Of a DNA stretch of 41,498 nucleotides, positions 31,383-35,109 are shown piece after piece; the first letter of the stretch is position 1; every line of letters starts with the position of its first letter. The stretch lies in the NCBI GenBank assembly GCA_021779955.1, contig JAJXZS010000045.1:1-41498 (forward strand), written 5' to 3'. Made by a program: the position numbers and the translations under genes. The DNA is from Chloroflexota bacterium (GTDB lineage Bacteria; Chloroflexota; Anaerolineae; Anaerolineales; Anaerolineaceae). The notes beneath the pieces are model-generated. The model saw nothing but the letters and a program-made list of their open reading frames with translations. It had not been told where the DNA came from and ran no database searches.

Positions 31383-32558
31383 CTACTTGTCTTGAAGCGC
31401 TGCTACACCAGGCAACTCCAGTCCTTCGAGCATTTCGAGAGAAGCCCCTCCGCCAGTGGAAATGTGCGTGATCTTGTCGGCCAGCCCGGATTCCTGAACC
31501 GCTGCCACCGAATCGCCGCCGCCGATGATGCTGACGGCCTTGCTTTCGGCAACGGCTTTGGCAATCGCGAAGGTTCCTTCGGCAAAGCGCGGGAATTCGA
31601 AGACGCCCATCGGTCCGTTCCACACGACCATCCCCGCGCCGCTGATGACCTTGCTGTAAGCTTTGACGGTTTCCGGGCCGATATCCAGGATGCGCCAGCC
31701 GTCGGGAATTGGGCCGACAGCCATCGTCTTCATGGCTGCTTCGGCATCGAACTTGTCGCCAAGCACCACGTCGACAGGCAGGCGCAGCTTGGTGCCGCCT
31801 TCCTTGAGTAGCTCCTGTGCTGTCGCGATGGCTTCTTCTTCAACCAATGAATCCGCAACCGGATACCCCTGCGCCTTGAAAAAGGTATTCGCCATGCCGC
31901 CCCCGATCAGTACCGAGTCGGCCTTGGTCAGCAGATTCTTGATCACGCCGATCTTGTCGCTGATCTTTGCCCCACCCATGATCGCAACGAAGGGATGCTT
32001 CGGATCGGCAATCGCCTGCCCGAGATATTTGATCTCTTTTTCAAGCAAGAAACCGGCAACGGAGGGCAGATAGTGGGTGACCCCTTCCGTGGATGCATGA
32101 GCGCGGTGCGCCGTCCCGAACGCGTCATTGACGAAGATATCCGCAAGCGATGCCAGTTGCTTCGCCATCGCCGGGTCGTTCTTCTCTTCCTCGGGATGGA
32201 AACGGGTGTTCTCAAGAAGCAGTACTTCTCCCGGTTTGAGCGCTTTGGCTGCTTTTTCGGCTTCGGGACCGATGCAATCTGGGGCAAAGGCAACCGGCTT
32301 TCCGAGCAACTTGGCGAGATGGCCGGCAACGGGCTTCAGTGAATACTTGGGGTCAGGTCCGCCTTTGGGCCTTCCCAGGTGAGAAGCGAGGATCACGGCC
32401 GCTCCATGCTCCAGGAGATACTTGATTGTTGGCAGCGCTGCCTTGATGCGGGTATCATCCCCCACCCCGCCATCTTTCAGCGGTACGTTGAAGTCAACTC
32501 TGACCAGGACCCGTTTGCCTTTGACATCGATATCACGCACAGTTTTTTTATTGAACAT
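31383..32558 (-). CDS. pgk: Phosphoglycerate kinase
   Basis: A 391-aa glycolytic enzyme transferring phosphate from 1,3-bisphosphoglycerate to ADP. Signature [12 protein letters not shown] lies near the N-terminus; [36 protein letters not shown] and the C-terminal nucleotide site GGGDSVAAV are in order. Length is standard for bacteria. GAGAGGAG lies before ATG 32558. It follows gap by 89 bases that contain a 12-bp hairpin. No triosephosphate isomerase gene follows; a haem-binding domain gene does. Confidence 0.97.
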
Positions 32559-32582: not shown

Positions 32583-32623
32583 GGATGCGTAATCAGTCTG
32601 TTGTTGACCGCGATTACGCATCC
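32583..32623 (-). promoter_or_regulatory. Hairpin between gap and pgk
   Basis: GGATGCGTAATC (32583-32594) pairs perfectly with GATTACGCATCC (32612-32623), 17-base loop. On the minus strand it starts 24 bases after the gap stop. TGTTTATATT follows, too poor in T for a strong terminator. It could reduce read-through into pgk or stabilise the gap mRNA end (inference). Confidence 0.55.
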
Positions 32624-32647: not shown

Positions 32648-33700
32648 CTAGAGTTTGCTTGCCATCAATGCCGCCAAATCCGCTGTGCGGCAGGAATAAC
32701 CCCATTCATTATCGTACCAGGCGATCACCTTCACCAGGCTTCCGCCCATCACCATGTTGTTGGGAAGATCGACGATGGAAGATCGGGAGTCACCCTTGAA
32801 GTCCATCGATACCAGAGGTTCGTTGTACTCGCCGGTGGTAAAGCCCAGGATGCCCTTGAGCTTGCCCTTCGAAGCTTCGATGAATGTCGCGTTGAGCTCA
32901 TCCTTGGTCGTGGGTTTTTCGATGTTGGCTACGAAATCGACCACGGAGACTGTGGGAGTCGGGACGCGCAGTGAAAGTCCGTCGAACTTGCCCTTCAGAT
33001 CGGGGATGACCAGGGCAACCGCTTTGGCAGCGCCGGTTGTCGTCGGGATGATATTCAAGCCGGCGGCGCGAGAGCGGCGCAATTCTTTCTTGTGGCCCTG
33101 ATCCAGGATGACCTGATCGTTCGTGTATGAGTGGATCGTGGTCATAACCGCGTAGGTGATGTGGAACTTGTCGTGAACGATCTTGACAGCAGGTGCAAGG
33201 CAGTTGGTCGTGCAGGAGGCATTCGACACAACGTTGTGTTTGGCGCTGTCGTACATGTCTTCATTGACGCCGAGGACGACTGTGATATCTTCATTCTTGG
33301 CAGGGGCGCTGATGATTACCTTCTTCGCTCCACCCTTTTCGATGTGAACACGGGCTCCTGGCTTGCCTTTCGCCGGATCGCCCGCTGCGTCGGTGAAGAG
33401 ACCCGTCGACTCGATGACGATATCGACGCCCAGGTCCTTCCAGGGAAGCGCGCCCGGATCTTTTTCTGCAAAAACTCTGATCGGTTTACCATCGACGAGC
33501 AGGCTGCCCTCCCGGGCTTCTACGTCTCCGTGGTAAATTCCGTAATTTGAATCGTATTTGAACAGATGAGCATTTGTTTTTGTGTCGAAAAGATCATTGA
33601 TGGCTACAACTTCAAGCTCACTGCCGTGTCTTTCCTTGATCGCCTTCAAAACCTGACGGCCAATCCGTCCGAAACCATTGATTCCTACTTTTACTGTCAT
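32648..33700 (-). CDS. gap: Glyceraldehyde-3-phosphate dehydrogenase (type I)
   Basis: A 350-aa enzyme. The NAD-binding [15 protein letters not shown] start, the acidic residue after strand beta-2 (AINDLFD, favouring NAD), the catalytic NASCTTNC with Cys163, the HSYTNDQ and [20 protein letters not shown] loops and the C-terminal [11 protein letters not shown] motif are all present. It oxidises glyceraldehyde-3-phosphate in glycolysis, or runs in reverse. AAAGGAGGTAA lies before ATG 33700. The promoter spacer contains a 16-bp palindrome, so expression is probably regulated. pgk follows. Confidence 0.98.
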
Positions 33701-33727: not shown

Positions 33728-33756
33728 ATTTTACCATGTCTAGACATGGATTGTAA
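33728..33756 (-). promoter_or_regulatory. gap promoter with palindromic operator in the spacer
   Basis: On the minus strand an extended -10 TGGTAAAAT (33736-33728) and a weak -35 TTACAA (33756-33751) are separated by 17 bases, of which 16 (33734-33749) form a perfect palindrome with half-site CCATGTCT and core GTCTAGAC. The core matches operators of HutC-type GntR regulators such as DasR and NagR. Regulator identity is inference; no regulator gene is in the window. Confidence 0.65.
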
Positions 33757-35109
33757 TCATAATTGACTTGCGCTGTCTCTCGGATTCAACGGCCCTGTCC
33801 GTTCGAGATAGAGATCCATCACGGTTTTGGCCAGCTTCTCTGAATCGTGCCGCCACGGGTTCTCGACGTCGAGCAGATCAGACTTGTATACGGGCGCGCC
33901 CATCTCCTCCGCAGGGTCCAGCTTCACCCAGTCGATACCTTCGGGGAGGCTTCCTCCATAATTCGAATTGCAGATGGCGACATCGATCAGTCCCCGTCCA
34001 ATATGACGTTCTATCGTCTTTAGGTGATCATTGCAGGTAAAATGATCGGTCTCGCCGGGTTGGGTCGCCACATTACATACGTAAAACTTGGCTGCCCGGC
34101 TCGCCCGAATGGCATCTCGAAGATCGGGAACCAGCAGGTTGGCAAGCAAGCTCGTGAAAAGGCTCCCAGGGCCAATGATGACCAGGTCGGCATTGAGGAT
34201 CGACTGCACCGTTGGCGGAAATGCCGCCGGGCTGGCCGGCTCGAGCCATACGCGCTGGATCTTGCCCCCAATTTTGGGAATCTGACTCTCGCCTTCGATC
34301 TGCACTTCCACTTCGCGATCCTCGAGTTTGACGTCAGCGCACAGGTTCACGTTATGCAGCGTGGATGGAAAAACATCTCCCTGCACCGCCAGCACACGGC
34401 CCATCTCGGCAACGCCTTCTTCGAAGCTTCCGGTCAATTCCGTCAGCGCAGTGATCAACAAATTTCCGAGCGAATGCCCGTTCAACCCCGCGCTTGCGCC
34501 AAATCGGTATTGAAAGAGTTGAGTCAGCAATTCTTCATCTTTGGAGAGCGCAGCCAGGCAATTGCGAATATCTCCAGGCGGCAGAATGCCGATATTCTTG
34601 CGCAGTTCTCCCGATGATCCGCCGTTATCCGCGACAGTCACCACGGCAGTGATATTGCGGGAATACTCCTTCAATCCGCGAAGCAGTGCAGAAAGGCCTG
34701 TGCCCCCGCCAATGACAACGATCCGGGGACCTCTTTCGCGCCGGCGGTACTCCGACACCGTCTCGATGACGTCGGCGCCAGGGCGCACAAAAGGCTTCAA
34801 TAGCGTCCGGTTGAGACCCATGATCCCGACGGCAATGAGCGCCACGCCCAATCCGCCGAAGACAATCGCCCGTAAAGTGCGATCCAGAAACCGCAGCGAA
34901 GCATAAGATAGGATCGGTAGCCACCAGGTATCGGGAGTTGTTCTATAGACGTCCAGCAACAAAACGGCGAGCCCAACCCCCAGGAGGGTGATACCGCCGA
35001 GGATAAGCAATACCCAACGCTTTATTCCAATTCCCGGAATAAGCCATCGCAATTTCAACACCATGGATTGGAAGAACCGCTGTGGGTAGCGGTTTCGTTT
35101 AGGTCGCAT
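33757..35109 (-). CDS. yvcK: Membrane-anchored YvcK/CofD-like gluconeogenesis factor
   Basis: A 450-aa protein. The N-terminal 130 residues hold two hydrophobic helices (about 30-53 and 80-100), followed by the CofD/YvcK domain: VVIGGGTGLSALLRGLKEYS, VTVADNGGSSGELR, PPGDIRNCLAAL, GNLLITAL, IIGPGSLFTSLLANLLV and CNVATQPGETDHF. In Bacillus subtilis the soluble YvcK binds UDP-GlcNAc and is needed for growth on gluconeogenic carbon. I placed the start at ATG 35109, since a promoter (TTGACG, 17, TATTAT) ends only 9 bases upstream and the longer reading to 35160 would include it. The nearby gap, pgk and kinase genes fit a central-carbon role. Confidence 0.9.
   Translation of the reverse strand: MRPKRNRYPQRFFQSMVLKLRWLIPGIGIKRWVLLILGGITLLGVGLAVLLLDVYRTTPDTWWLPILSYASLRFLDRTLRAIVFGGLGVALIAVGIMGLNRTLLKPFVRPGADVIETVSEYRRRERGPRIVVIGGGTGLSALLRGLKEYSRNITAVVTVADNGGSSGELRKNIGILPPGDIRNCLAALSKDEELLTQLFQYRFGASAGLNGHSLGNLLITALTELTGSFEEGVAEMGRVLAVQGDVFPSTLHNVNLCADVKLEDREVEVQIEGESQIPKIGGKIQRVWLEPASPAAFPPTVQSILNADLVIIGPGSLFTSLLANLLVPDLRDAIRASRAAKFYVCNVATQPGETDHFTCNDHLKTIERHIGRGLIDVAICNSNYGGSLPEGIDWVKLDPAEEMGAPVYKSDLLDVENPWRHDSEKLAKTVMDLYLERTGPLNPRDSASQL

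Follow-up and report, generated by a model that had tools for sequence, protein, structure and literature searches.

A conserved palindrome at the gap promoter of an Anaerolineaceae genus, a putative operator of a dedicated regulator

Introduction

Dyads placed in the promoter spacer are the operators of MerR-type regulators, whose promoters have a -35 spaced 19-20 bp from the -10. The dre sites of DasR and NagR, which are operators of HutC-type GntR proteins, have TGG/CCA flanks, and WhiA is the usual neighbour of yvcK. For the HutC family the consensus GTMTAKAC has been reported, in a study whose accessible part includes no HutC member from Chloroflexi (PMC4494728), and for Rex the accessible part of another study gives the operator as TTGTGAAW4TTCACAA (PMC2883068). 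In the cggR-gapA operon of B. subtilis, gap and the gene upstream of it are separated by an inverted repeat, and according to the available portion of the report a hairpin downstream of a cleavage stabilises the product (PMC11780869). The literature searched yielded no description of how gap is controlled in Anaerolineae, or of YvcK and gap in Chloroflexi. Here we describe a palindrome at the gap promoter of a Chloroflexota genome (G000) and compare it with these systems.

Results

Layout of the gap promoter

The window, that is, the whole stretch of DNA analysed (41,498 nucleotides), contains the following features around gap:

31383..32558, minus strand, pgk
32583..32623, minus strand, gap-pgk intercistronic hairpin (arms 32612-32623 and 32583-32594), taken as a natural control
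32648..33700, minus strand, gap, type I glyceraldehyde-3-phosphate dehydrogenase, 350 aa
33708..33713, minus strand, AGGAGG, ribosome-binding site of gap, as read from the sequence
33728..33736, minus strand, extended -10 TGGTAAAAT of the gap promoter, a role predicted from sequence
33734..33749, no strand, perfect 16-bp palindrome CCATGTCTAGACATGG, the proposed operator
33751..33756, minus strand, TTACAA, earlier read as a weak -35; not conserved and probably no element
33757..35109, minus strand, yvcK (CofD-like, TIGR01826), start uncertain

The start codon of gap lies at 33700-33698, and gap is the only match of that protein in G000. The yvcK frame is open to 35160, with an ATG at 35109, and the region 33757-35058 was taken for searches; its stop codon is 7 bp from the palindrome. 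The minus strand of 33756-33728 reads TTACAATCCATGTCTAGACATGGTAAAAT, in which TAAAAT (33733-33728) adjoins the palindrome and so forms TGGTAAAAT.

A sequence-only reading of this DNA had placed the palindrome exactly between an extended -10 and a weak -35. The perfect palindrome is real, and it is the sole one of 16 bp in the window; the layout had to be amended, as the palindrome shares the TGG of the extended -10 (3 bp overlap) and the -35 was not supported, the mean match to TTGACA being 1.0-2.5 of 6 at spacers of 15-21 bp in the 10 orthologous promoters. The same reading offered a spacer-binding activator of MerR type as an alternative. The likeness to MerR-type operators is the dyad in the promoter spacer, but the gap promoter differs in having no conserved -35 at 19-20 bp: the mean match was 1.1 and 2.2 of 6 at 19 and 20 bp, respectively, and TTGACA occurred at 20 bp in a single promoter (1/10, G003), which makes a MerR-type regulator unlikely. 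An intrinsic terminator was not found at the palindrome, where no T run follows the hairpin and TAAAATTAAGG comes next, and Rfam gave 0 matches at gathering score on the window.

Conservation of the site among relatives

Upstream regions of gap were collected from the family and the order, with start codons chosen by script as the in-frame start with a ribosome-binding site. In the family, gap was matched in 142/147 genomes and 130 upstream regions were used, among them that of G061, where the top match is a remote paralogue (48% identity); the 12 genomes left out were G001 (masked), G029, and ten with fragments or weak matches. At the order level, 73/79 genomes had a match and 70 upstream regions were used, leaving out G044, G288 (distant) and G308 (fragment). 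Absences reported below are absences of detection, since most of the genomes are partial (completeness 68-100% within the genus).

Ten gap promoters carry the site: nine from the genus of the window (G000, G002, G003, G004, G007, G008, G010, G013 and G014) and one from another genus (G093). When these were aligned on TAAAAT, 21/22 columns of the 22-mer CCATGTCTAGACATGGTAAAAT were identical and the remaining one was identical in 9/10, the lone change being a central A-to-G substitution in G008. Columns flanking the block were identical in 6/10 on either side, and those farther away in 3-8 of 10 (-60 to -17) and 4-9 of 10 (+6 to +29). Across the 45 pairs of carriers, identity at fourfold sites of gap was 0.25-0.43 in 31 and 0.47-0.52 in 8; the other 6, all combinations of G007, G010, G013 and G014, reached 0.70-0.83. 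The centre is also palindromic, as the site of a dimer should be, with the exception of G008. The earlier interpretation is supported in part, namely for a site at the gap promoter that is regulatory and sequence-specific.

Two observations taken together, absence from orthologous gap promoters and absence from all other promoters of the genome, had been named as speaking against that interpretation. The first is not what was found: among the 15 readable genus promoters (the 16th, G001, is masked with N at the site) eight have the exact 22-mer and G008 adds a ninth at 1 mismatch, and the exact 22-mer also stands at gap in G093. The six readable promoters without the site had 3 (G011), 4 (G015), 5 (G006), 7 (G005 and G012) and 9 (G009) mismatches, while ATGGTAAAAT was kept in 15/15 with or without the palindrome, indicating that gap does without the palindrome in these six genomes. 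In the gap protein tree (34 rows, midpoint root, several forks weakly supported) carriers were scattered among non-carriers and G093 grouped with other genera, so the site may have an early origin within the family.

A perfect 16-bp palindrome would be expected about 0.63 times in the window under uniform base composition, so that the palindrome by itself is within chance, whereas its placement and conservation are beyond it. A chance palindrome beside an extended -10 that alone is functional would accord with this expectation and with ATGGTAAAAT outlasting the palindrome (15/15 against 9/15 readable genus promoters); we regard it as very improbable, given that conservation of the -10 itself is matched, in carriers, by that of the 11 bp preceding CATGGTAAAAT, save one base in G008.

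Search for further copies

The sequence-only reading had suggested a search of the genome for further sites, and this also bears on the second of the two observations named above. No second site was found within 2 mismatches in G000 (2.83 Mb), and at 3 mismatches the pattern gave 6 places, counting the gap site, against 6 for the reversed control, so there was no sign of a wider regulon in this genome. The five further 3-mismatch places were rejected as sites, their number being equal to that of the control and each overlapping an open frame of at least 375 codons on one strand.

Nine of the 16 genus genomes had exactly one site at no more than 1 mismatch, just upstream of gap by coordinates; under the same limit, the reversed control had 0 places in the nine carriers and one in G011 across the 16 genomes. 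The site, its place at gap and its single copy per genus carrier are observed directly, as is its invariance in the ten carriers. Across the order, the 22-mer at up to 3 mismatches was present in 10/400 genomes (a draw including 12/16 of the genus genomes), with every place at gap but for one in G167 at 3 mismatches. A scan of genome_contigs, which may omit records of the window's own genome, was carried out with the 21-mer CATGTCTNGACATGGTAAAAT and returned 10 loci, namely nine carrier gap promoters (8 seen upstream of gap, and L098 assigned to G010) and L092, which lies inside an Elusimicrobia ORF and was taken as a chance match.

GntR-type candidates

A GntR-type repressor, as proposed earlier, is a candidate. 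The palindrome resembles HutC-type operators such as the dre sites in having a GT-N4-AC core, and this core, GTCTAGAC, fits the consensus GTMTAKAC, which in the accessible part of its source was drawn without Chloroflexi members (PMC4494728); moreover, G000 encodes five GntR proteins, three of which combine GntR and UTRA domains (HutC-type; on C40, C19 and C3). The gap site differs from the dre sites in its CAT/ATG flanks, in its one gap target, and in having no counterpart at a GntR gene of G000, where the 150 nt ahead of each of the five genes yielded nothing closer to the palindrome than 6 mismatches. Hence in G000 the palindrome is found neither at a candidate regulator's own gene nor elsewhere in a regulon, and none of the three HutC-type proteins could be linked to it.

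The C40 gene (L201) has orthologues in 11 other genus genomes (72-83% identity, among L250-L267), and the promoters of these 12 genes have ACTGGTAGTGACCACATGACCAGT in 7/12 and a close variant in 5/12, an operator that differs from the gap palindrome. HutC operators were read by eye over 30/57 UTRA matches, and within this coverage no C40 orthologue turned up for the carriers G002, G007, G008, G010 and G093. The C19 gene stands between adenine deaminase-like and carbamoyltransferase genes, and no related site was found in the region upstream of the C3 gene. Co-occurrence of HutC proteins with the palindrome was uninformative, because UTRA-domain matches were present in 17/17 genomes examined, carriers and non-carriers alike. 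Given the mismatches at the GntR genes and the separate operator of the C40 protein, it is doubtful that the palindrome is the operator of a HutC-type GntR repressor of this genome, a case that we count within the operator reading.

As a separate observation, a FadR-type GntR gene of G000 (L203, on C18, with an FCD domain) is preceded by a perfect 18-bp palindrome, TATATCATATATGATATA, which ends 8 bp before its start.

YvcK, WhiA and Rex

An amino-sugar link through the neighbouring YvcK had also been suggested; relatives have yvcK ahead of gap whether or not they carry the palindrome, so this adjacency is uninformative. WhiA was rejected as the protein that reads the site, PF02650 being found in 0/16 genus genomes.

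Rex (PF06971) was undetected in 15/16 genomes of the genus (g1), the other, G008, having one, and it was found in 32/33 other genomes asked, that is, in all except G162 and including the carrier G093. Rex-like sites of at least 12/14 bases were present in 14/200 gap upstream regions, against 0.10 expected from shuffles, with six in family f12 and five in genus g8, where the sites overlap the end of yvcK and part of the match is the yvcK end. Sites of 12-13 of 14 bases were recorded at L276, L290, L300, L301 and L312 (f12) and at L024, L153, L158, L193 and L194 (g8). When TTGTGAA-N4-TTCACAA was searched, no genus promoter appeared among the 30 best matches listed from the 200 upstream regions. 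The gap palindrome thus shares with Rex operators the position of a dyad at gap promoters, as in g8 and f12, but is unrelated in sequence and belongs to a genus in which Rex is mostly undetected. By these Rex-like sites, dyads at gap promoters are not rare in the order, and a different one is present in the genus of the window.

Folding upstream of gap and the gap-pgk control

An inverted repeat at this place could also act as RNA. A stem-loop of a yvcK-gap-pgk read-through transcript might protect or define the 5' end of a processed gap mRNA and merely overlap an internal promoter, which we consider possible, if on the unlikely side. Over the 130 family gap upstream regions, the genus-mean folding z was -1.31, -1.67 and -1.11 in three windows between -70 and -14, compared with -0.06 to -0.57 farther upstream, and the best inverted repeats reached p 0.05 against shuffles in 31/101 sequences (a test that excluded five order-level sequences and those with N). 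Other family genera have inverted repeats of different sequence and variable loop length at the same place: in genus g21 several G-U pairs contribute to a hairpin of 17 bp (z -5.8 and -5.5 on the sense strand, against -1.4 and -2.8 antisense), loop length varies between relatives in g15 and g60, and several g15 genomes have the hairpin downstream of a TATAAT. By their G-U pairs, changing loops, or place downstream of TATAAT, these cases look like RNA. In the upstream regions L108 and L109 (G117 and G035) the 3' arm of a 17-bp hairpin with several G-U pairs holds TGGTAAAAT.

Sense folding was stronger than antisense in 22/36 genera (Wilcoxon p 0.016), which favours a stem-loop; the difference was not significant, however, within promoters with (p 0.20) or without (p 0.07) TGGTARAA, nor was a direct G-T versus A-C comparison (p 0.26). 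Among the six readable non-carriers only G009 folds clearly, through a different hairpin with AATGGT at its end (z -3.2); G006 had z -1.1, and G005, G011, G012 and G015 were above 0. The alternative hairpin of G009 fits a structural role, whereas the other five non-carriers argue against one. The signal was weaker in the 70 order-level gap promoters (z about -0.7), and the family-wide signal may in part reflect DNA operators such as the Rex-like ones.

In the comparison set, 75 other genes had a mean z of -0.43, a background that tempers the gap signal, 8 gap regions had -1.81 and 8 pgk regions -4.44; a mixed set of 93 genes that includes gap and pgk had -0.90. The region upstream of pgk was unfit as a negative control because it has a strong hairpin of its own, and the 75 other genes were used instead; yvcK upstream regions provided 3 sequences only.

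That second hairpin, between gap and pgk, is in line with a structured transcript and at the same time serves as the natural control. In the ten carriers its arms, GGATGCGTAATC...GATTACGCATCC, have 6/13 pairs changed on both sides and several G-U pairs, and its z averaged -3.85 across 32 rows and -4.44 across 8. This hairpin is probably an RNA element with a structural role in the operon. (A T run follows this hairpin in L050 and L062 of g16 and in L059 of g46.) The arms of the gap palindrome had zero changes in the same ten genomes, which by itself speaks neither for nor against pairing, and its T-CTAG-A centre is conserved though dispensable for pairing with the promoter arm. With its arms frozen while the gap-pgk hairpin of those genomes covaries, the gap palindrome appears unlike a purely structural RNA in its evolution. 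In carriers, moreover, a stem-loop would sit upstream of the start predicted from TGGTAAAAT. The likeness to the cggR-gapA hairpin, as far as the available portion of that report describes it (PMC11780869), is one of place, an inverted repeat between the upstream gene and gap, while the gap palindrome differs in that carriers keep its sequence frozen and in that it precedes the predicted start.

Discussion

The palindrome is probably read by something as a switch for gap alone. We give about an even chance to its being the operator of a dedicated gap regulator, and a DNA operator read by sequence is favoured over a purely structural hairpin because the arms are frozen where the gap-pgk hairpin covaries. 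A DNA-reading protein is accordingly ranked first and a hairpin second, and both could hold.

As an operator, the palindrome would be a double-stranded DNA site for a dedicated homodimeric regulator of gap, and would cover the region just upstream of the -10 in a promoter with an extended -10 and without a -35. Binding of a protein at this position would obstruct RNA polymerase, for which reason repression of gap would be the simplest mode. We infer the promoter role of TGGTAAAAT as well as protein binding and repression.

The Rex-like dyads at gap promoters nearby (14/200) offer a precedent for such an operator. Against it, one target with no other genomic copy is unusual for a transcription factor, the repeats of other genera, with their differing sequence and loop length, suit a structural role better, and 6/15 genus promoters lack the site (3-9 mismatches) while all have ATGGTAAAAT.

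A broader proposal, which we advance as speculative and rather unlikely, is that an undescribed regulator devoted to gap, acting on an old family operator, governs lower glycolysis in a genus from which the redox sensor Rex has been lost, and that elsewhere in the family the same spot has drifted into Rex sites or leader hairpins. A one-target site on a core promoter, in a genus mostly without detected Rex, would be a clean bait for its regulator.
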